From Clostridia bacterium (GTDB taxonomy: Bacteria > Bacillota > Clostridia > Christensenellales > Borkfalkiaceae), in contig JAFQWV010000019.1 in NCBI GenBank assembly GCA_017407325.1, positions 1-64,000 of the forward strand: a stretch of DNA of 64,000 nucleotides, read 5' to 3'. The notes under the pieces are model-generated. The model did not search any database. It was not told the origin of the DNA and saw only the letters and a list, made by a program, of their open reading frames with translations. Shown here piece by piece: positions 3,578 through 42,617 of the stretch. Both the position numbers and the translations under genes were made by a program. Numbering within the stretch: position 1 is the stretch's first letter; the number at the start of each line of letters is the position of its first letter.

Positions 3578-4702
3578 TTAGTTATAGTATTTTTGACATT
3601 CTATTGTAAGTGGATAAATTTCTTCGCTTGTGTTTCCTAAAAACTCGACGAGTTTTGTCACAGCAAAGGAAAAACCTTCGTGGAAATTTTTAAACACATT
3701 CTGTCTGATTTCGTCAACGTGAGGATAATTTCTGTCTTCTTCTATCAAGTCTGCTATAAAAACGACTTTTTCTAAATCGCTCATATGCGCCCGACCTGTC
3801 GTATGAAATCTTATTGCATTTAAAATATCTTCGTCTTTTATGTTTAGAATTTCTTCTGCAACGTATGCGCCTAAAAATTGATGCATAACTTTATCAGTAA
3901 TTTCTTTTGGAATGAACGACGGTATTTTAAAGTTTGGAAAATCTTTCGTGCTTTTGTATTTAGCTGCGTCGTGAAGTAGGCTTGCAAGCTCTGCTTTTTT
4001 TATATCAACTCCTATCATCTTTGCAAGCTTTATGGCACAAACAATTACGTTTGCTGTATGTCGAAGCCGTTTTTGTGGCAATTCGTTTTTTACGTGAATA
4101 TAATAGTTATTCGACTTATATAAAGCCTTTTTCTCAATATATTCTAAAATTTGACTTGGCAAAAACTCTGTTGTATCAATAGAAAGCTTAATATAAGTCT
4201 TAATTTTCGTGCTTGATAAATTTGTTCCGTTGTATGACGAAAATAATATTTTTTTAGAAAAGTGATCGTAGTAATTTTCGATTGCTTTTTTCTGATCTTC
4301 ACCGGCTCTTGAAGTTACGATTAAACTTGCGCTATGCAAAATCTTATCGGGATTTTTCCAAGTAGGAAAATCAAGTAGCATATCTGTGCCAACTAAAAAA
4401 TAAAATTCGCTATCCTTATACACGTTTTTAAAATGCTCGATTGTCAAATAGGTGTAGCTCGTACCTTTTGATACTTTTTCAAAATCGCTTATCTCAACTT
4501 TGTCACAATCTTTAAACGCAAGTTTAAGCATATTATACCTATCGTCAAAGTCAGAAAGCGTCTGCCCAATTTTATGCGGTGGAATAAACGCAGGGCAAAT
4601 TATAAGCTTATCAAGCGAAAATTCGTTTATTATATTTTCAGCAAGCTTTATATGTTCGTTATGAACAGGATCAAACGACCCACCAAATATACCTATCTTC
4701 AT
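3578..4702 (-). CDS. nadD: NadD-YqeK fusion: nicotinate-nucleotide adenylyltransferase plus HD-domain Ap4A hydrolase
   Basis: A 374-residue two-domain protein. Residues 1-195 are NadD: GIFGGSFDPVH, the HNEH version of the nucleotidyl-transferase HxGH motif (14-17) and SSTKIK (163-168). Residues 205-370 are an HD domain of the YqeK type, with RH215T, LLHD (H244, D245), H274, H300 and D318 as likely metal ligands. NadD makes deamido-NAD from nicotinate mononucleotide and ATP; YqeK-type proteins split diadenosine tetraphosphate. The two are usually separate neighbouring genes, and here they form one reading frame with no internal stop. It lies between the 63-residue gene (14 nt upstream) and rsfS. 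Confidence 0.92.
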   Translation of the reverse strand: MKIGIFGGSFDPVHNEHIKLAENIINEFSLDKLIICPAFIPPHKIGQTLSDFDDRYNMLKLAFKDCDKVEISDFEKVSKGTSYTYLTIEHFKNVYKDSEFYFLVGTDMLLDFPTWKNPDKILHSASLIVTSRAGEDQKKAIENYYDHFSKKILFSSYNGTNLSSTKIKTYIKLSIDTTEFLPSQILEYIEKKALYKSNNYYIHVKNELPQKRLRHTANVIVCAIKLAKMIGVDIKKAELASLLHDAAKYKSTKDFPNFKIPSFIPKEITDKVMHQFLGAYVAEEILNIKDEDILNAIRFHTTGRAHMSDLEKVVFIADLIEEDRNYPHVDEIRQNVFKNFHEGFSFAVTKLVEFLGNTSEEIYPLTIECQKYYN

Positions 4703-4716
4703 AAATTAACGTAGTA

Positions 4717-4908
4717 CTATTTATTTCTTCTTGTTTTTTCGCGCTCTAAGTCTTGTAATATCTCATCTAACATTTTTGAAAATTCTTCTTCAAATTCTTC
4801 TTCAGTCAAATTTTCAAATCTTTCATTAAACTCTTTTCTTACTTCTTCAACTTCGTCAAGCCCGTCTTGATATTCTTTAGCAAGTTTTTTTAATTCTTCT
4901 TCAGTCAT
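4717..4908 (-). CDS. small acidic helical protein, unknown
   Basis: A 63-residue protein with very high Glu content (for example EEEFEEEFSKMLDEIL). It is predicted to be entirely alpha-helical, possibly coiled coil, and ends in a basic KTRRNK tail. A GGGAG ribosome binding site precedes the ATG. It is the first gene of the nadD-yqeK/rsfS operon and has its own sigma-A promoter at 4944-4972. I do not recognise a family; the position suggests a housekeeping role. Confidence 0.6.
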   Translation of the reverse strand: MTEEELKKLAKEYQDGLDEVEEVRKEFNERFENLTEEEFEEEFSKMLDEILQDLEREKTRRNK

Positions 4909-4943
4909 AAAAAGATGCTCCCAAGAAAAATTACTTTTTTATT

Positions 4944-4972
4944 ATTTTAACATAAAAAAAGTAATATTTCAA
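4944..4972 (-). promoter_or_regulatory. sigma-A type promoter of the nadD-rsfS operon
   Basis: On the minus strand TTGAAA, 17-nt spacer, TAAAAT. Just upstream, at 4983-4996, is the palindrome TGACATTTTTGTCA. It sits between this promoter and the divergent gene at 5008 and could be an operator. Confidence 0.6.
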
Positions 4973-5007
4973 GAATAAATAATGACATTTTTGTCAATAT
5001 TTCTAAT

Positions 5008-16850: not shown

Positions 16851-16976
16851 TTTGCCTTCCCCTCGAGGGGAAGGTGTCACATTAGTGACGGATGAGGTGT
16901 AAAATCATAAATTTATTCCTAACTTAGTTAATATATCTTGACAAACACCTTCAAAATTTTTATTTATTTCGTAATT
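16851..16976 (-). pseudogene. truncated DUF559 element: hairpin end plus last ~26 codons
   Basis: About 126 nt nearly identical to 18671-18795: the CCTTCCCCTCGAGGGGAAGG palindrome, the GTCACATTAGTGAC stem, GGATGAGG and the 3' end of the DUF559 reading frame. Identity stops at GTAATT (16976). It is a fragment of a second copy, lying 12 bp upstream of the EAL-like start codon and 19 nt from the GIY-YIG element. Confidence 0.8.
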
Positions 16977-16995: not shown

Positions 16996-17447
16996 TGTCA
17001 TTGCGAGCATCGAAAAACGATGCGTGGCAATCTCAAAAGAACTGACTATGCTTTAATAAACTTAATAACTGTTGTACTAATTAAAATCCAAACTCAAATC
17101 TTTCCAAGCGGGATTATTTTCATTAATTAATTGATTTTTCTTTGCTCTTTTCCAACTCTTTATTTGTTTTTCTCTTGCTATTGCTGAATAACTATCGGTT
17201 GTAATTTCGTAATAAACAAGAACATCTACGTTATATCTGCTTGTAAACCCTTCAATTAATTTATGTTTATGTTCATACAGCCTTCTTTCAAGGTTATTTG
17301 TAACACCAACGTATAGAGTAGTACAATTTTTATTAGTTAAAATATATACGTAATACTGCATTTGTTCTTTATATTTTTTGTTTTTTAATAAATTCCGCTA
17401 ATTCTTTAGAGATTGCCACGCGTTACTGTGTAACGCTCGCAATGACA
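16996..17447 (-). mobile_element. GIY-YIG nuclease gene bounded by 39-nt inverted hairpin repeats
   Basis: The ends are 16996-17034 and 17409-17447, inverted relative to each other. Both read, from outside in, TGTCATTGCGAG, a variable stem-loop, then GTGGCAATCTC. The internal stem differs between the ends (GCATCG/CGATGC against GCGTTAC/GTAACGC) while the arms are constant. Only one gene, the GIY-YIG protein, lies inside. No transposase is present. Confidence 0.65.
17077..17361 (-). CDS. GIY-YIG nuclease family protein (UPF0213-like)
   Basis: A 94-residue single-domain GIY-YIG protein. The YVYILTNKN start with TLYVGVTNNLERRLYEHK gives the family's Y...YVG core, with R and H in place; EKQIKSWKRAKK carries the conserved Glu and the basic end. 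The length is the usual one for stand-alone members. Family enzymes nick or cut DNA, but the targets of these short ones are unknown. It is the only gene in the inverted-repeat element described at 16996-17447, which suggests the gene moves or is kept together with those repeats. Confidence 0.85.
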   Translation of the reverse strand: MQYYVYILTNKNCTTLYVGVTNNLERRLYEHKHKLIEGFTSRYNVDVLVYYEITTDSYSAIAREKQIKSWKRAKKNQLINENNPAWKDLSLDFN

Positions 17448-17575
17448 AATAAGAATATCAAGTAACGCTCGCAATGACAAATAAGAATATCAAGTAACGC
17501 TCGCAATGACAAATAAGAATATCAAGTAACGCTCGCAATGACAAATAAGAATATCAAATAACGCTCGCAATGACA
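17431..17575. repeat. five tandem copies of a 32-nt piece of the GIY-YIG element end
   Basis: The period is 32 nt with starts at 17431, 17463, 17495, 17527 and 17559. Each copy begins TAACGCTCGCAATGACA and most continue AATAAGAATATCAAG; the last one diverges. Only the outer arm of the inverted repeat is repeated. A further divergent end (TGTCATTTGAG ... AATCTC) lies at 17585-17611. Confidence 0.85.
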
Positions 17576-17640
17576 CCACCTTTTGTCATTTGAGTGAAAC
17601 GAAGAATCTCTAAAGTACGCTCTTAGTTGTTTAACCTTAA

Positions 17641-17692
17641 TGCAAAAAATTGTTTTTGCAATTTATGAAAACCGAAAGGTTTTCAATTCATT
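17641..17692. repeat. short hairpin array, downstream side of the anchored surface protein
   Basis: Two perfect stems, TGCAAAAA/TTTTTGCA (17641-17660, ATTG-type loop) and GAAAACC/GGTTTTC (17666-17683, GAAA loop). They are separated by ATTTAT and followed by AATTCAT. It begins 4 nt past the stop codon of the gene ending at 17697, in the same style as the other arrays of this locus. Confidence 0.7.
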
Positions 17693-17696
17693 ATCT

Positions 17697-18563
17697 TTAC
17701 TCCACTTCAGCAAACGTTACGTTAAACGTAATATATCCACCGAGTATGTCGTTGGTGTGCTCTGGATCGCTTCCTTCGTACCATACGCAAACGCAGTAAC
17801 CTACTACTTCTTGTGGAGCTAACTCAAAAACGATAGAGTCAGTTTCGTTAGTATCGTAGAACCAGTTGTTATTTTCAGATAGTTGTAACGACGTGCAGAG
17901 CCAATCTTTAGTTTCGTCTTTTGGATCAGAAACGTAAGTTGACGAACCGCGATATTTTGTAGCCGCCTTTTCTTGCGTGCCGTCACTAGCAGGCTGAGCG
18001 TACATAGTTTTATTTTTTTCGCCTTCTGTGTCAGAAATTACTAAAAATCTAACGGCAGAAAGCGCGTTTTTGCTGTTTTCTAAAATGTTGATACGCATGC
18101 GGTATTTTATTGGATCGGAACCAAGATCCGCAACGTTTTTAAGGTAAAATTTACTTGCAATATATTCATCAGTTCCGCTAGCTGCCGCTTTTCCTTCTTG
18201 GTTATTCGGCTGAATTTCCATAGGAATTTCACCGCTTGCAACTTTGTCGATATAGTCGGCAATTCCTTCGGTGTAACCGGTACCTTCGTTATGTTCAGCG
18301 TTTTGAACGCCTAAACCTTTCAATACTGAAAAACCGCTATCGGAAAATTCGGGGTCAAAACTTAAAGATAGAACGCCGTCGCGTTTACCTGATACGACAA
18401 TTCTATAACTGTTTACGTCTGCCGACGAATAAATCGCACCCCACAAAAGCAAAAGCAAAACAATCGCCAAAATAATGGTAATAACAATTTTAAACTTACC
18501 ATGGCGTTCGATTTGCTTTTTCGCATCGAGCTTATTTAATTGTGATTGATCAAATTCTGCCAT
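17697..18563 (-). CDS. membrane-anchored TasA-like surface protein
   Basis: A 288-residue protein, start at the MAEFDQSQ methionine (18563) because AAAGG lies 5 nt upstream and the frame above runs through hairpin repeats. A short cytoplasmic N-terminus is followed by a membrane helix at about 25-47 and a beta-rich extracellular domain. There is no TFAWY signal motif, so it should stay attached to the membrane. Its C-terminus, VGYCVCVWYEG ... GYITFNVTFAEVE, matches the VW(F/L/Y)(D/E)G ... F pattern at the ends of the three TasA-like proteins at 20.2-23.6 kb. It may be the anchor of a fibre made by them. Hairpin arrays flank it on both sides. Confidence 0.6.
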   Translation of the reverse strand: MAEFDQSQLNKLDAKKQIERHGKFKIVITIILAIVLLLLLWGAIYSSADVNSYRIVVSGKRDGVLSLSFDPEFSDSGFSVLKGLGVQNAEHNEGTGYTEGIADYIDKVASGEIPMEIQPNNQEGKAAASGTDEYIASKFYLKNVADLGSDPIKYRMRINILENSKNALSAVRFLVISDTEGEKNKTMYAQPASDGTQEKAATKYRGSSTYVSDPKDETKDWLCTSLQLSENNNWFYDTNETDSIVFELAPQEVVGYCVCVWYEGSDPEHTNDILGGYITFNVTFAEVE

Positions 18564-18575
18564 TTTTACCTTTTT

Positions 18576-18674
18576 GTAGCCATAAAGGCTACTTGATATG
18601 CTATCAAGGATGATTTGAAAACTTTTCAAGTTTTCATGATTTGAACGGCTTGCCGTTCATGAAATGCAACTTGC
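18576..18674. repeat. hairpin array A
   Basis: Consecutive stems: GTAGCC/GGCTAC (18576-18592), TTGATA/TATCAA (18593-18607), GAAAACTT/AAGTTTTC (18617-18635), GAACGGC/GCCGTTC (18643-18658) and GCAA/TTGC (18666-18674). ATGATTT follows the third stem and ATGAAAT the fourth. The array runs straight into the left end of the DUF559 element. Confidence 0.8.
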
Positions 18675-19130
18675 CTTCCCCTCGAGGGGAAGGTGTCACA
18701 TTAGTGACGGATGAGGTGTAAATCATAAATTTATTCTTAACTTAGTTAATATATCTTGACAAACACCTTCAAAATTTTTATTTATTTCGTAATTTGAATA
18801 TCTTAAAACTGTTATACCTTTACTATTTAAGTAACAGTCTCTAATTCTATCTTCTTTTTCGTTTTCTTCTTGATAATGTTGTGAACCGTCTAGTTCTATA
18901 ACAGTTTTAGGTTTTGCACAATAAAAATCAACTATATAATTTCCAATTGTTTTTTGACGATAGAAATTTATCGGTAATCTTTTTAAAAAATCATACCACA
19001 ACTTTCTTTCTTCTTTCGTCATGCTTTTTCTTAGGCTTTGAGAGAGTGTAATAAGGTCTTTATTGTATAAGTCGTTCATTTTACACCTCATCCACCGCAA
19101 GCGGTCCCCCTTCCCCTCAAGGTGAAGGCT
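18671..19130 (-). mobile_element. DUF559 nuclease gene bounded by inverted double-hairpin repeats
   Basis: The left end (18671-18720) and inverted right end (19080-19130) each have a CCTTCCCC/GGGGAAGG-type palindrome, then a variable stem, then GGATGAGGTGTAAA at the gene side. The variable stem is GTCAC/GTGAC on the left and ACCGC/GCGGT on the right. The DUF559 gene fills the interior exactly, its start and stop touching the repeats. A truncated second copy is at 16851-16976. No transposase is present. Confidence 0.7.
18723..19079 (-). CDS. DUF559 family endonuclease-like protein
   Basis: A 118-residue protein of the DUF559/Vsr-like PD-(D/E)xK group; start at the MNDLYNKD methionine (19079), since the frame above it is repeat sequence. 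SMTKEERKLWYDFLKRLP is the typical N-terminal part. YIVDFYCAKPKTVIELDGSQH supplies the D ... E-x-D catalytic residues, and VLRYSNYEINKNFEGV is the usual end. The stand-alone family is common in Bacteria without a proven role. Here it is packaged between inverted repeats and inserted among surface-protein genes, with a 3' fragment of a sister copy at 16.9 kb. Confidence 0.85.
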   Translation of the reverse strand: MNDLYNKDLITLSQSLRKSMTKEERKLWYDFLKRLPINFYRQKTIGNYIVDFYCAKPKTVIELDGSQHYQEENEKEDRIRDCYLNSKGITVLRYSNYEINKNFEGVCQDILTKLRINL

Positions 19131-19145
19131 AAACCCGACCGAAAT

Positions 19146-19236
19146 GCAAACGATAGTTTGCAAATCATGCAATCTGTGATTGCAAATCATGACGAATTTA
19201 TTCGTCAAATCATGCAAAATTTATTTTGCAAATCAT
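19146..19236. repeat. hairpin array B
   Basis: Four stems, each followed by the identical linker AAATCAT (ATGATTT on the minus strand): GCAAAC/GTTTGC, GCAATC/GATTGC, GACGAA/TTCGTC and GCAAAAT/ATTTTGC. Loops are 2-4 nt. It fills the gap between the DUF559 element and the stop codon of the second SipW gene, ending 3 nt from that stop. Confidence 0.88.
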
Positions 19237-19239
19237 CTA

Positions 19240-20178
19240 TTATTCGCCAGAACCTTCGGTCCCTTCAGCGCTTGTTTCTTCTTTAACTTCTTCAGCGCTA
19301 GTCTCCTTAGGCTCTTCAGCGCTTGTCTCTGCGCTTTCTGCTGTATTTTGCGACTTGAGATATTCTTCTATTGCGCGACGCTTGATTTCTTCTTCGTCGA
19401 GTTTAGTTTCTTCTTTTGCTTTCTTTACTTTTAATTGAATAATAATTTTAACTACGCCGTATGCGTTATATAAGAATAACAAGATAAGTGGTATTAAAAT
19501 AACTATAAAGAAATGTGTTGGTTGCATAAACCAAGTAAGTACAGCACCTATTCCGTTTACGTGCGTTTTGTAAATTGCAGTAAAAGTTACGTTTGAAACA
19601 GGGTGGTCGTAGTTATCGTCAAATTGCGTAACGCTCAAAACAACATCACCTTCTCTTAAATACGGAGAAGTTAGACCGATTTTTTCAGGTTGAGTGTAAC
19701 CGAAATCGTCCATACTGCCGTATTCGGTGGTATATTTATCACCACGCGTTACGTACGATTTAATTTGATAATTAGGATATAGTTGGGCAAAGTCAGATGC
19801 ATTTTCAATTTCGCCCTTTTTATAGTAAGCAATTTGAGTTGCATTGTTTTCGTCTTTATAACTGTAACCAACGATACGGTGGGTATCTAAATATTGTAAA
19901 CCACCTGAAGATGCTACGAAGGTTACGATAGTTCCTAAATCGTAAACTTTATTATCCGTTTCGTCAGTAATAACAAGCGCGCCAACCGGTATCGTTGGCG
20001 TCATAGAGTCAGTCTGAACGGGCAAAAACTTCGTAGTGCCGTTTTTGCCCACTTCTCCAGGCTGAGCGATGACGAATATGGAAAAAATTATACATACCGC
20101 AATAACAACACACTCGATAGTGAGTAAAATATTATTTAATATTTTTTTGTTTTTCGATATAGGTTTCTTTTCTTCCAT
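19240..20178 (-). CDS. SipW-type signal peptidase I, second copy
   Basis: A 312-residue membrane peptidase. The N-terminal helix is at about 16-38; catalytic serine in TDSMTPTIPVG (S58); histidine in DTHRIVGY (H100), again the Ser/His class; acidic TRGDKYTTEYGS downstream. A large insert (about 105-200) separates these from a second membrane segment at about 222-245. The C-tail is acidic and repetitive (ETSAEE, KETSAEE, EETSAEG). It lies 69 nt downstream of the tasA-like gene at 20247-20930 and most likely removes the TFAWY-type signals of the three secreted proteins. It is longer than the first copy and not closely similar outside the catalytic blocks. Confidence 0.85.
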   Translation of the reverse strand: MEEKKPISKNKKILNNILLTIECVVIAVCIIFSIFVIAQPGEVGKNGTTKFLPVQTDSMTPTIPVGALVITDETDNKVYDLGTIVTFVASSGGLQYLDTHRIVGYSYKDENNATQIAYYKKGEIENASDFAQLYPNYQIKSYVTRGDKYTTEYGSMDDFGYTQPEKIGLTSPYLREGDVVLSVTQFDDNYDHPVSNVTFTAIYKTHVNGIGAVLTWFMQPTHFFIVILIPLILLFLYNAYGVVKIIIQLKVKKAKEETKLDEEEIKRRAIEEYLKSQNTAESAETSAEEPKETSAEEVKEETSAEGTEGSGE

Positions 20179-20246
20179 ATTCTTCCGTCACCTTACGTTT
20201 TTAATTTTTAATTACTATGTAGTAATTTTAGTTTTTTGCTTAATTA

Positions 20247-20930
20247 TTATGATTGAGCTTGAGTTGCTGTTCCATTAAATGTTAAAGCAAATTGCACTGT
20301 CTCGCCTTGGTCAGTGTTTACAGTATCCCAACCATCAAACCAAACAATAATTTGTAACACTACTTTTTCAGTTTGATTATTAAGCGCAGAAATTGTTGTT
20401 GCGCCTGCATCAGGTGTAATAGTTTGAGCCGCACCTTTTGTTAAACCATCAGCAACTGTAAGGTTATAGCCTTTACCTGCAACAATCTTAGCATTTGTAG
20501 CATCATAAAGAATATAAGAATAAGTATCAGATGATCCAGTTGGTGTAATACCGATTGTTACATCTAATCCTTCAGCAGCATCATTTCTAATCCAAAATTC
20601 TCCATAAAGAACTTCAGATGCAGCAGCCAGTGTTAAATTACCTTCATTTCCAGTTGCCCAGTTTGCTGCTTTAAACGCAGCCATGTCGCCAGCAAATGCA
20701 ACAGTTGGTGAAGTAGGGTCTAATATGTCACCAGTAATCGTTGCTGTATTACTCCAATTTGCACCTGAATCTGAACTAATTTGCAAGTTACCAGCAGCAG
20801 TATTTGCTGTAATAGTGGAAACAGACGCTGTAGCACTATTGTTAGCAGTGTACCATGCAAATGTTGCCGTAGACATTGAAATTACTAATACCAATGTCAT
20901 AACGATTGATAAAATAAGTGATTTTTTCAT
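20247..20930 (-). CDS. TasA-like secreted fibre subunit 1
   Basis: A 227-residue secreted protein. The N-terminal signal ends with STATFAWYTANNSATA, the A-x-A/T-F-A-W-Y motif of SipW-dependent signal peptides; cleavage probably lies near the FA-W junction. The mature part is beta-rich, Thr/Ala-rich and low in charge, and ends VVLQIIVWFDGWDT ... QFALTFNGTA. A strong AAAGGAGAG ribosome binding site precedes the ATG. This is the plainest candidate for a major fibre subunit, having its own good ribosome binding site and the most compact body. Array C lies directly upstream. Confidence 0.75.
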   Translation of the reverse strand: MKKSLILSIVMTLVLVISMSTATFAWYTANNSATASVSTITANTAAGNLQISSDSGANWSNTATITGDILDPTSPTVAFAGDMAAFKAANWATGNEGNLTLAAASEVLYGEFWIRNDAAEGLDVTIGITPTGSSDTYSYILYDATNAKIVAGKGYNLTVADGLTKGAAQTITPDAGATTISALNNQTEKVVLQIIVWFDGWDTVNTDQGETVQFALTFNGTATQAQS

Positions 20931-20996
20931 GTTTTTTACTCTCCTTTACATGAATTTTTTTATTATTTTTGTCTTTTTACAAGACTAAAAACCAAA

Positions 20997-21305
20997 ATTG
21001 ATGAAATGAAACTATCGTTTCATGAAATGAACAACTGTCATTGTTCATGAAATGCAAGCCTACTTTTTGCGTACGCCTTGCATGAAATGCAAAACTCGTT
21101 TTGCATTATTGTCGCGAACGCTTTTAGCGTTCCGTAATTAACATATAAATTTTTTCTAATGAATACTTAATTATATAATTTTGTTCGGCAAATTTTAATT
21201 TGCTCGACCACAATGCAATCAACGATTGCATTTCATGATTTTTTAAAAATCATTTCATGGCGTATGCCATTTCACGAAAAGTCAAAAGACTTTTCATTTC
21301 ATTGC
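20997..21305. repeat. hairpin array C (309 nt), mirrored around a conserved core
   Basis: On plus, the left half has stems GAAAC/GTTTC, GAACAA/TTGTTC, GCAAG/CTTGC and GCAAAA/TTTTGC joined by ATGAAAT. The core (about 21105-21210) has GAACGC/GCGTTC, an AT-rich stretch and GCAAATT/AATTTGC. The right half has GCAATC/GATTGC, GATTTTT/AAAAATC, GGC/GCC and GAAAAGTC/GACTTTTC joined by the inverted linker ATTTCAT. The stop codon of the gene ending at 21299 lies in the outermost linker. Near-identical to array D. Confidence 0.9.
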
Positions 21306-22006
21306 TCTGCTTCTACAAAGTCCACGTGTAGATTAAGTTCGAAATTCTGTAACTTTGCGCCTTCTGCCTGTGAATCAGTGTCAAACCATACGTATAAAGT
21401 TAATACTTCGTGATATTCGATTGTGTTCTTCTCTATATCTACTTGGGTACCAGTAAACGAACAAATTGAAACGCCGTCGATTTCCATATCAGAAGAAAAT
21501 CTAATTGTTCCGTCGCTTGATACAAGCGCGTATTTTAAATACTGGGTAAAATCTCCTAAAGTAGTATCTTCTTGAATTATAGTTTTCGTTACTTGTAAAT
21601 CAAATGTATGTGTGTTTTGATTTTCTTCAATTTCGCCCGAATAAATTAAACCGAGCTCGTAACTGTTCGTGTATGCAGGCGTATCGAGCAACGTTTCGTC
21701 GTTACCGTCTGAATAATCGACAAGACCTAGAGGGCTTTTTACCTGCCATTTATCAATTATACCGTCTTCGTTATTGTCAACAAGTTTAGCAAACGGTGGG
21801 TTTGAAAGAGTAAAGGTATCACCCGAACCTTCTATCGTTTCGTCACCATATCCGCCTGCTGTAATTTGTCCAACATTTGCAGTTGCCCTATCGTTTGCGA
21901 CGTACCAAGCAAAGGTTGCCGCGACGATTGATAATACTATAGACAACGCAACTACGATAGATACGACGAAGTGTTTTTTTAAGTTTTGGTCAGTGGTTTG
22001 TTTCAT
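21299..22006 (-). CDS. TasA-like secreted fibre subunit 2
   Basis: A 235-residue secreted protein whose signal ends VAATFAWYVANDRATANVG, closely like subunit 1 (TATFAWYTANNSATASVS). The mature beta-rich domain is more acidic than subunit 1 and ends LTLYVWFDTDSQ ... FELNLHVDFVEAEQ. The ATG (22006) has no Shine-Dalgarno sequence: the upstream bases are the edge of hairpin array D. The stop TGA is embedded in the first linker of array C. Translation may depend on coupling to the gene upstream or on the array. A minor or adaptor subunit is a reasonable guess. Confidence 0.72.
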   Translation of the reverse strand: MKQTTDQNLKKHFVVSIVVALSIVLSIVAATFAWYVANDRATANVGQITAGGYGDETIEGSGDTFTLSNPPFAKLVDNNEDGIIDKWQVKSPLGLVDYSDGNDETLLDTPAYTNSYELGLIYSGEIEENQNTHTFDLQVTKTIIQEDTTLGDFTQYLKYALVSSDGTIRFSSDMEIDGVSICSFTGTQVDIEKNTIEYHEVLTLYVWFDTDSQAEGAKLQNFELNLHVDFVEAEQ

Positions 22007-22013
22007 AGATTTT

Positions 22014-22320
22014 ATTGATGAAATGAAACTGTCGTTTCATGAAATGAACAACTGTCATTGTTCATGAAATGCAAGCCTACTTTTTGCGTACGCCTTGCAT
22101 GAAATGCAAAACTCGTTTTGCATTATTGTCGCGAACGCTTATGCGTTCCGTGATTAACGTATAATTTCTTTCTAAGGAATACTTGATTATATAATTTTGT
22201 TCGGCAAATTTTAATTTGCCCGACCACAATGCAATCAACGATTGCATTTCATGATTTTATAAAAATCATTTCATGGCGAAAGCCATTTCATGAAAAGTCA
22301 AAGACTTTTCATTTCATTGC
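22014..22320. repeat. hairpin array D (307 nt), sister of array C
   Basis: Same order of stems and linkers as array C. Several differences fall in loops: TATC/TGTC, TTTTA/TTAT, GTAT/GAAA, AAAA/AAA. The arms of those stems are unchanged. The AT-rich core also varies, at several positions. It separates the tasA-like genes at 21299 and 22314 and contains the stop codon of the latter. Confidence 0.9.
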
Positions 22321-23642
22321 TTACTCCAAACGCTCAACTGATTCTTTAACAAATCTGCTATTTCTACAGGTGTCATTTCTAATATGTCAGGAGTCCAGCC
22401 GTATGGGTTTGCAAAGGTTGCGCTTGTTAAATTTGTGTTTGTAAATGCAAATTGGTCTATTTCTTCTAGCTTATTACCAAAGTGAACAGTTTGTAAATTC
22501 TTACAGCCATAAAATGCCATTTCGCCTATGGTTGTTACTGTGTCAGGGATAACGACTGAATTAAGATAATCTTTATCTCTGAACGCGCCGGCTGCTATTT
22601 TTGTAATTTGAACAGTTTCCGTTCCACTGTAAAAAGCACCCGGAATAATTAAGTCTTCAGTTTCTATCGAGTTTAGAATTTCACCGTTTACAACGTTATT
22701 TGTGCCGATGCTTGAAGTTATGTTTGCTAAGTCGTTAAAGTGTGCGTCAAACGTAAACGCCCCGGACTCTGCTTTAGCATCGCCAAAACCGTCGAGCCAA
22801 ACGACTGCAACAACGCTGTACGTTGCGCCTTCTTCCGCAAGGAAGTATCCGTTTTGAGAAACCGCTATTTTAGAAGTTCCGTCAGCAATATACTTAAATG
22901 CGTTGTTTGCAAAAACAATTTTTTCGTTCGAGCCGTCGGTTATTTCCACGGCATCTTGATGAGTTTTTTGATAGTAGATTGCGTAATTTACGTTTTTTGC
23001 AGCAATAACGTCATATTCGTTTTCGCTATCTTTTGGTGTTATACTTACCGTCACACCGACGAGCTTATCTTCTTCTGCACTAAAGTTACCCGTGATATTG
23101 AAGCGATTGTCGCTTTCACCTGACGGAACGGATATATCGTAATCTTCAATTGGGGTTACGTCTGAAAGTGGCGTCACCACTGAAACGTTGCTACTGTTAA
23201 AAGGAATATTGTTATCTTGTGGATCTTCTGGGTCGGTTTCTTCTACCTGATCACCTGCACCCCCACCAGAGCCGGTTACTATATCACCAAATTGACCTTG
23301 TAAAATTACTGCGCCTTCGCTTAAAGCAATATTGCTAATAGTTACGGTTGCGCCGTCGTTATTTTTAGCCCAATCCGTTTCACTTGCAAAATTTGTTGCA
23401 TCTTCGATAGCAACTTCGCCAAAATCGTTGTTAGGTGCGATACCAAGTAGCGTAGTGCTTTCTTCGTCCATATCGCGAAGTGCGTAAGAAATTTTAAAGT
23501 CGCTGTCAACTTTCTTTGAGATATTGTTATTTAAGTCTGCGTACAAATAGCCGTTAATTTCGTACCAAGCAAAAGTCGGCGCTACTATTACAAGCACCAA
23601 AGCAAAAATCAATATTAAACTGAGTTTTGATTTATACTTCAT
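22314..23642 (-). CDS. TasA-like/leucine-rich-repeat secreted protein 3
   Basis: A 442-residue secreted protein, first gene of the surface locus. The signal ends VIVAPTFAWYEINGYLYAD, again the TFAWY motif. Residues about 35-310 form a beta-rich domain with a Gly/Asp/Glu linker near 125-145, ending SVVAVVWLDGFGDAKA ... FTFDAHF, as in the other subunits. Residues about 330-425 are BspA-type leucine-rich repeats (ITKIAAGAFRDKDYLNSVVIP, TTIGEMAFYGCKNLQTVHF, LEEIDQFAFTNTNLTSATF). Such LRRs often bind host or surface ligands, so this may be a tip adhesin. The stop codon lies in array D. A consensus promoter is at 23736-23764. Confidence 0.75.
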   Translation of the reverse strand: MKYKSKLSLILIFALVLVIVAPTFAWYEINGYLYADLNNNISKKVDSDFKISYALRDMDEESTTLLGIAPNNDFGEVAIEDATNFASETDWAKNNDGATVTISNIALSEGAVILQGQFGDIVTGSGGGAGDQVEETDPEDPQDNNIPFNSSNVSVVTPLSDVTPIEDYDISVPSGESDNRFNITGNFSAEEDKLVGVTVSITPKDSENEYDVIAAKNVNYAIYYQKTHQDAVEITDGSNEKIVFANNAFKYIADGTSKIAVSQNGYFLAEEGATYSVVAVVWLDGFGDAKAESGAFTFDAHFNDLANITSSIGTNNVVNGEILNSIETEDLIIPGAFYSGTETVQITKIAAGAFRDKDYLNSVVIPDTVTTIGEMAFYGCKNLQTVHFGNKLEEIDQFAFTNTNLTSATFANPYGWTPDILEMTPVEIADLLKNQLSVWSKQ

Positions 23643-42084: not shown

Positions 42085-42150
42085 GCCATTACGCGACAAA
42101 TATTAATTTTGTTTTTTCGCAAAGAAAAACCGTCGCATTGACGAAACTAT

Positions 42151-42360
42151 GTAGCCATTGGCTACATGATATGCGAAACAAGTTTCGCTCGATATGCAAA
42201 GCGTTGCTTTGCTCGATATGCGCGAACTTTGTTCGCGCTCGATATGTTGCTTACGCAACTCGATAGCAAGTTTCCAACTTGCATAAAGGTCGTGAACGCT
42301 TGCGCGTTCCGAAATTAATATATAATTTTTTCTAAGGATTTTATTAATTGTGATAAAATT
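42151..42360. repeat. hairpin array E with conserved core
   Basis: Stems: GTAGCC/GGCTAC, GCGAAAC/GTTTCGC, GCAAAGC/GCTTTGC, GCGCGAAC/GTTCGCGC, GTTGC/GCAAC and GCAAGTT/AACTTGC, joined by ATGATAT and then TCGATAT linkers. Then comes the same core as arrays C and D: GGTCGTGAACGC, loop, GCGTTCCG, AATTAAnATATAA, TTTTTTCTAA. The mirrored right half seen in C and D is absent here; tandem repeats take its place. Confidence 0.85.
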
Positions 42361-42366
42361 TGCCTA

Positions 42367-42547
42367 TTATATGTAAATAAAGCCTTAGAAACAAGGTCGA
42401 GCAACTCGACGGTTATGTATTGCTTTTTCATACGCTCCGCCCTTTTATATGCAATAAAGCCTTAGAAACAAGTTAGGCTAGGCTCGAAAAAGCCCTTCGG
42501 ATTGGATAGACCTTGCTTATTTTATGTAATAAAGCCTTAGAAACAAG
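42367..42547. repeat. three ~28-nt direct repeats spaced 75-78 nt
   Basis: Copies at 42367-42395, 42445-42472 and 42520-42547 share AATAAAGCCTTAGAAACAAG. The stretches after the second and third copies also resemble each other (GGATTGGATAGACCTTG against GGATTAGATAGACCTTG). It is thus a decayed tandem duplication of a ~75-nt unit that includes one arm of the terminator at 42562. Confidence 0.7.
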
Positions 42548-42561
42548 CAGTTCAAGGCTCT

Positions 42562-42617
42562 AAAAAAGCGTTTGGATTAGATAGACCTTGTTGGTCATCT
42601 AAGTCAAACGCTTTTTT
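42562..42617. terminator. long terminator hairpin downstream of the SPFH gene
   Basis: AAAAAAGCGTTTG and CAAACGCTTTTTT form the base; TTAGAT/ATCTAA and GACC/GGTC continue the stem to a TTGTT loop. It looks able to end transcription from either side; on minus it follows the gene ending at 42650. Confidence 0.8.

Follow-up and report, generated by a model that had tools for sequence, protein, structure and literature searches.

The two long hairpin arrays, C and D, in the 64-kb stretch of DNA analysed here (the window) raise the question of what kind of element they are and how they came to lie between protein-coding genes. The window belongs to a genome assembly of 1.59 Mb that is 95% complete (G000, the analysed genome). 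An earlier note had described C and D as hairpins set on a constant ATGAAAT linker and its complement, with mirrored halves around an AT-rich core; their positions and this layout were confirmed, with 10 hairpins in each array (4 outer hairpins and 1 core hairpin on each side).

Array C spans positions 20997 to 21304 (no strand), where its identity with D and with a third copy stops. Its left half (21001-21106, + strand) holds four hairpins (21006-21023, 21027-21048, 21052-21083, and 21087-21106) and ATGAAAT linkers at 21001, 21022, 21047, and 21082 on the + strand, and leads to the left core (21111-21132, +), which consists of a GTCGC tag and the core hairpin GAACGC..GCGTTC (21116-21132). The AT-rich centre (21133-21186, no strand) is of the GATTAACATATAATTTTTTCTAAKGA type, a sequence related across all linker families. 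Beyond it lie the right core (21187-21209, −), with its hairpin (21187-21204) and a CGACC tag (21205-21209), and the right half (21213-21302, −), with hairpins at 21213-21231, 21235-21253, 21257-21270, and 21276-21295 and ATTTCAT linkers (−) at 21230, 21252, and 21296, a fourth copy being mutated to ATTTCAC. Array D (22014-22319, no strand; edges set by identity with C) comprises a left half at 22018-22123 (+) with ATGAAAT linkers at 22018, 22039, 22064, and 22099, a left core at 22128-22148 (+) with the GTCGC tag and the hairpin GAACGC..GCGTTC, a right core at 22203-22225 (−) with the hairpin GGCAAAT..ATTTGCC and a CGACC tag, and a right half at 22229-22317 (−) with ATTTCAT linkers at 22246, 22268, 22285, and 22311. 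Both arrays are located in intergenes, and their right ends overlap the stop codons of the adjoining ORFs. The surrounding region (17697-23642) encodes a run of small secreted-type proteins with alike N-termini (ATFAWY motif), probably exported proteins of the SipW type.

C and D are 95% identical, and the identity begins and stops at the array boundaries. A different contig holds a third copy (G000:C3:16388) with 91% identity and the same edges, while the genes next to C and D show weak similarity, confined to the N-terminal part. The arrays are thus younger than the surrounding gene family, and a segmental duplication or a recent assembly duplication, the latter named in the earlier note as one finding that would undo its reading, is ruled out by the array-bounded identity, the third copy with equal edges, and the differing neighbour genes. 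Among the 15 differences between C and D, 1 falls within the 144 stem positions compared to about 7 expected (binomial P = 0.0011), and this one turns a G.T pair into G-C, so that the pair is kept; the remaining ones are distributed over loops, AT core, and a single linker, in agreement with what had been seen by eye. Folding of both copies, proposed earlier as a check, showed both strands to be far more stable than dinucleotide shuffles, by 8 to 9 standard deviations (z = −9.2 for C as DNA; for D, z = −8.7 as RNA and −8.1 as DNA). Rfam searches of the window at gathering score returned a tmRNA and a glycine riboswitch, with no rRNA and no match at the arrays. Inspection by eye of the flanks of C, D, and the third copy, whose ends are not sharply defined, revealed no target-site duplication, and no empty array sites were found.

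DNA searches of the analysed genome demonstrated that C and D belong to a larger family, with 35 matches to C and 66 matches to an array at 42149. The stretches matching either query, to which our census applies, contain at least 65 arrays with a minimum of three hairpins each, totalling 8.5 kb; 1 of the 65 lies entirely inside a long ORF and 13 overlap one in part. The linkers fall into the families ATGAAAT, ATGATTT, ATAAATT/ATGAATT, GTGAAAT, and TCGATAT, and all of them share the inner part GGTCG-hairpin-CG-AT-rich-CG-hairpin-CGACC; in more detail, (G)GTCG(N) is followed by a core hairpin (for example GAACGC..GCGTTC), CG, and the AT-rich centre, after which the order is mirrored. Full elements carry four outer hairpins per side in the ATGAAAT, ATGATTT, and ATAAATT types and about five or six in the TCGATAT type. 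The halves are modular, as seen at locus L074, which combines a left half of the GTGAAAT type with a right half carrying ATATCGA. Gene-less GTGAAAT arrays are scattered through the genome. Within the window, the TCGATAT family is represented by an element at 42149-42359 (+) with six hairpins, GGTCGT, a core hairpin, and the AT-rich centre, the right half not being recognised. An ATGATTT array has its left half at 18592-18660 (+) and its right half, with the linker AAATCAT, at 19144-19236 (−), the two being separated by a DUF559 insertion. Two hairpins with ATTTA/ATTCA linkers at 17640-17692 (−), identified by eye, are probably a short remnant of the ATAAATT/ATGAATT family.

The DUF559 gene inserted into the ATGATTT array (18660-19143) has inverted flanks of its own (CTTCCCCTCGAGGGGAAG, GGATGAGGTGTAAA), and at 16855-16960, near 16.9 kb, there is a second remnant of this gene's end. 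A GIY-YIG ORF (17077-17361, in the region 17000-17575) sits between ATTGCGAGC..GGCAATCTC repeats and is followed by a 32-bp tandem repeat in 4.6 copies. We rejected both as the cognate gene of the arrays: DUF559 occurs once in the genome, within an array yet with its own inverted flanks, and the GIY-YIG nuclease is a single small ORF with different repeats. After the TCGATAT array, the region 42448-42590 contains 75-bp direct repeats starting AATAAAGCCTTAGAAACAAG, of which further copies exist elsewhere in the genome.

To avoid circularity in assessing the stems, units were cut out via the linkers alone. A terminal stem of at least 5 was present in 73% of the distinct units with TCGATAT linkers, 81% with GTGAAAT, 48% with ATGATTT, 37% with ATGAAAT, and 34% with ATAAATT, compared to at most 1% of shuffled units and 2% to 11% of chimeric halves. 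In the two inner hairpins, aligned over 24 half-elements, 97.1% of the cells were paired and 9 of the 13 pairs were altered on both sides. Two-sided changes occupied 60 cells, against a mean of 15.0 after shuffling and 6 to 18 with slid partners (covariation score 0.57 versus 0.17); the copy at C20:124741, which aligns poorly with C, D, and the third copy, was left out of the pair counts. Selection on array structure, be it as RNA or as a DNA cruciform, as proposed in the earlier note, is the simplest reading of this covariation, and we grade it as likely and no higher because template-switch correction of palindromes can also produce perfect stems.

BLASTN searches with array C against 60 relatives and against phages gave no match. 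Since the stems differ among species, BLASTN is blind to such relatives, and linker patterns alone detect them. Two TCGATAT linkers in register were matched 70 times in the analysed genome and showed a patchy distribution over the order (9 of 396 genomes); the reversed pattern, used as a control, matched nowhere. Three TCGATAT linkers were found in more than 100 stretches of GTDB genomes, mostly metagenome-assembled genomes (MAGs) of gut Clostridia. ATGAAAT arrays had a sole carrier, the analysed genome, among the 101 genomes of the family. The TCGATAT pattern was also present in six viral contigs, two of which (L081 and L082) appear to hold true arrays, the remainder being chance matches. The first of these, L081 (IMG/VR 3300029305_012123; predicted to be viral), has hairpin arrays with ATATCGA and with ACTTCAC at 4700-5000, a possible route for horizontal spread.

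Clustering of the ORFs near TCGATAT arrays yielded a four-helix-bundle protein, PF05635 (S23/IVP, the 23S rRNA intervening-sequence protein), in nine MAG loci, in which the array adjoins the gene, often straight upstream of it or on both sides. In the reverse test, which started from loci fetched by the protein family alone, 25 of 48 PF05635 loci had significant inverted heptamers, compared to 2 of 72 anchors shifted within these loci (Fisher P = 1.5e-10); about half of the PF05635 loci had no significant heptamers in this exact-match test. Periodicity in the flanks appeared only at lags 7, 14, and 21, with values per thousand of 161, 142, and 125 for plasmid copies, 44, 31, and 22 for the others, and 4.7, 3.4, and 3.2 for the controls. 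A second, independent set of plasmid PF05635 genes (Treponema, Nostoc, Bernardetia, Aulosira, Dolichospermum, Chlorohelix, Planktothrix, Gloeocapsa, and Monoglobus) had heptamers in 9 of 10 cases, Monoglobus being the exception; the positive copies come from Spirochaetota, Cyanobacteriota, Bacteroidota, and Chloroflexota. Their flanks consist of contiguous heptamers, for example (TTAGTGA)n in Bernardetia and (AATTGCG)n in Nostoc, and in other phyla these lie on both sides of the gene. A stricter detector of hairpin arrays was positive at 12 of 50 PF05635 loci; the low number arises because heptamers are mostly contiguous outside the order of the window, and the heptamer statistic was used instead. 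Within that order, heptamers at PF05635 genes are often separated by hairpins, as in C and D.

The window, including C, D, and their immediate surroundings, contains no PF05635 gene; three are found elsewhere in the analysed genome, with the heptamers GTGAAAT (the gene on contig C17), ATGAAGT, and ATGTAAT. Exact ATGAAAT is the main heptamer at none of these three and flanks a PF05635 gene in a genome of the same genus (G006). Other heptamers at PF05635 genes of the order are ATGAATT (G099), ATGATAT (G256), and ACGATA/ACGATG (G005 and G278). PF05635 was present in 7 of 9 array-bearing genomes compared to 14 of 46 other genomes, the comparison genomes being hand-picked. BLASTN matches of plasmids to the G006 element covered about a quarter of the query, likely stem from tRNA genes in it, and were discarded. 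Several PF05635 elements lie near tRNA genes (L239, L246, L249, L250, L254, L218, L220, and L222), which are possibly a preferred landing place. The plasmid genes at L303, L305, and L306 are placed between DUF1156 and Swt1-HEPN, or beside HsdS and HsdR, in defence-like operons.

Short extragenic hairpins in inverted pairs and in high copy number would also be expected of REP/BIME-like repeats moved by a Y1 (RAYT) transposase, present or since lost, that recognises linker plus hairpin. In Oscillospiraceae SIG450 a TCGATAT array lies 3 nt from an ORF that by eye resembles a truncated C-terminal part of RAYT (L161, 5825-6256; L133, 1136-1260), and two genomes with arrays and no detected PF05635 gene (G064 and G267) both have Y1 genes. 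Against this, Y1 (PF01797) had no match in the analysed genome at its 95% completeness, was not associated with arrays (4 of 9 array-bearing versus 22 of 46 other genomes), and had such arrays at 0 of 13 of its loci; the GTAG or CGTC foot is absent as well. We regard a Y1 origin as improbable. Copying by a reverse transcriptase, of the diversity-generating retroelement (DGR) or retron-like kind, was rejected since PF00078 is absent in the nine array-bearing genomes.

The position of the arrays could instead point to cis-acting RNA in the form of structured 5' or 3' UTRs with a role in transcription termination, in the protection of mRNA ends, or in control of the S23 gene, with dispersal as a by-product. 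Nearly all arrays lie outside genes, the overlap of C and D with neighbouring stop codons and their strong folding as RNA agree with such a role, and in Clostridia the arrays often stand immediately upstream of the S23 gene's ribosome-binding site. However, a UTR function requires neither mirror symmetry nor chimeric halves, a good promoter between array and gene at L246 indicates that this array is probably not co-transcribed, and in other phyla the heptamers flank both sides of the gene. An RNA function as the reason for the arrays therefore appears unlikely.

We compared the heptamers with the descent of the proteins in a maximum-likelihood tree of 57 PF05635 proteins. The TCGATAT genes, drawn from several genomes, formed one clade (support 99/94), which holds one G099 gene, the other PF05635 genes of G099 being placed elsewhere; genes with ATGAAAT, GTGAAAT, ATGAAGT, and ATGAATT, heptamers 1 to 2 letters apart, also grouped together. 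Protein distance correlated with heptamer distance (Mantel r = 0.47, P = 1e-4; 14 rows, excluding a TCGATAT duplicate with an identical heptamer). These results demonstrate that the heptamer tracks the PF05635 protein lineage and not the host. A gene inherited with its flanks as a unit would give a correlation anyway, so that the match supports recognition of the heptamer by the protein and cannot prove it.

A neutral origin would have the heptamers expand by polymerase slippage and the palindromes be perfected by template switching, neither being selected nor read by S23 proteins. A proposal that polymerases slip at 7-nt units in bacteria is quoted in a passage of PMC4679880, and template switching gives perfect stems with free loops, as seen here. 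Neutrality leaves unexplained that inverted heptamers are tied to one protein family and its lineage, that the two halves have equal numbers of hairpins, and that the core is common to different linker families; we consider it a doubtful account.

To our knowledge, no catalytic site or function has been described for the S23/IVP protein, despite solved structures. An AlphaFold model of the L117 protein (mean pLDDT 92.9) matched 2RLD (TM 0.86), 2GSC (0.84), and the DGR protein Avd (4DWL, about 0.8). The 2RLD structure has five chains, the Xanthomonas relative forms a ring of five (PMC4990558), and PF05635 and Avd are homologous (PMC10053308).

Taking together the scattered copies, the two-sided architecture with its common core, the covarying stems, and the heptamer flanks of PF05635 genes across phyla, we favour, with a probability of roughly 0.6, the interpretation that C and D represent dispersed copies, lacking the gene, of a class of mobile elements whose heptamers are read by S23-type proteins. 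Such elements would be built on inverted heptanucleotide arrays, here of ATGAAAT, in which each heptamer is separated from the next by a small hairpin, and gene-carrying members would encode the PF05635 four-helix-bundle protein. This protein, probably a pentameric ring like its solved relatives, may bind one strand at its heptamers, and the intervening hairpins would then fold out and keep the heptamer ladder in register; the two array halves could also pair linker to linker. The arrays might spread at the DNA level through strand transfer in replication or repair by host enzymes, which we invoke because the genome has neither a reverse transcriptase nor a Y1 transposase. This is the weakest part of the proposal. 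The S23 protein has no known catalytic site, which leaves the transfer step without an enzyme of its own. Gene-less copies would be spread by an S23 protein encoded elsewhere in the genome, such as one of the three in the analysed genome.

More tentatively, S23/IVP proteins in general could be lineage-specific heptamer readers that form, with their inverted repeats, a mobile class in many phyla, which would explain at least part of the STRR/TAACTGA-type repeats and make the hairpin arrays an elaborated form. If so, S23/IVP proteins, heptanucleotide repeats, and the palindrome arrays of gut Clostridia would be parts of one system, possibly a REP-like one with a non-enzymatic partner protein, raising the question of how such an element spreads. 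In the open literature, outside which most subscription journals lie, we found no paper linking PF05635 and heptamer repeats as a class.

The earlier note knew of no class with this layout. The known families compared here (REP, CRISPR, and those of Rfam) indeed do not match it, and the layout nevertheless has kin in the heptamer repeats that flank PF05635 genes. REP and BIME elements are defined by an unpaired GTAG or CGTC tetranucleotide at the hairpin foot (PMC3733652). Like the REP/BIME/REPIN and RAYT system, C and D are palindromes dispersed outside genes and grouped as mirror images, and their class has a cognate gene with the repeat in its flanks. In contrast to REP, the linkers (TGAAA, TGATT, TAAAT, TCGATAT, and GTGAAAT) carry no GTAG/CGTC tag, ten different stems stand on a constant heptamer in place of one repeated stem, and the genome lacks Y1. 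With two defining REP tests negative, the C and D arrays are not REP/RAYT elements. CRISPR arrays have identical repeats of 20-50 nt and unique non-palindromic spacers, whereas here the constant part is 7 nt and the variable units are palindromic. The mirrored linker arrays are comparable to the terminal inverted repeats of MITEs, though the stems differ between halves. Avd of the DGRs has the same four-helix fold as PF05635, but a reverse transcriptase was absent from all nine array-bearing genomes searched. Dispersed heptanucleotide repeats, namely the cyanobacterial STRR, TAACTGA in Beggiatoaceae, GGGAATC in Xanthomonas, and GGGACCG in Geobacter, are described in passages of PMC4679880, PMC4692102, and PMC2700814. 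As portrayed there they share the 7-nt unit, the intergenic position, and the tandem arrangement, but are contiguous and without hairpins, while the heptamers of C and D are separated by hairpins. The same passages name no protein partner that we could find, and one author suggests that a repeat-binding protein might be the mobile element itself (PMC4679880).

A further close comparison is with the intervening sequences (IVS) of 23S rRNA. In the Coxiella burnetii IVS, one published case with heptamers, tandem units (GACAGAT) precede the S23p ORF (PMC4990558), and L270, judged by eye, resembles an insertion in 23S rRNA whose heptamers are of the GGTTAGA type. The element class shares with the 23S rRNA IVS the PF05635 gene, inverted terminal repeats, and heptamers beside the gene. 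Unlike them, C and D have no gene, lie between protein genes, and carry hairpins between the heptamers, and because they are gene-less and hairpin-bearing we do not count them as 23S rRNA IVS members. C and D have the inverted heptamers of an S23/IVP element (ATGAAAT four times and ATTTCAT three to four times) and no PF05635 gene in or beside them, and could therefore only be gene-less derivatives of such an element. The inverted heptamer repeats beside PF05635 genes also occur with hairpins, and C and D have this hairpin-bearing layout.
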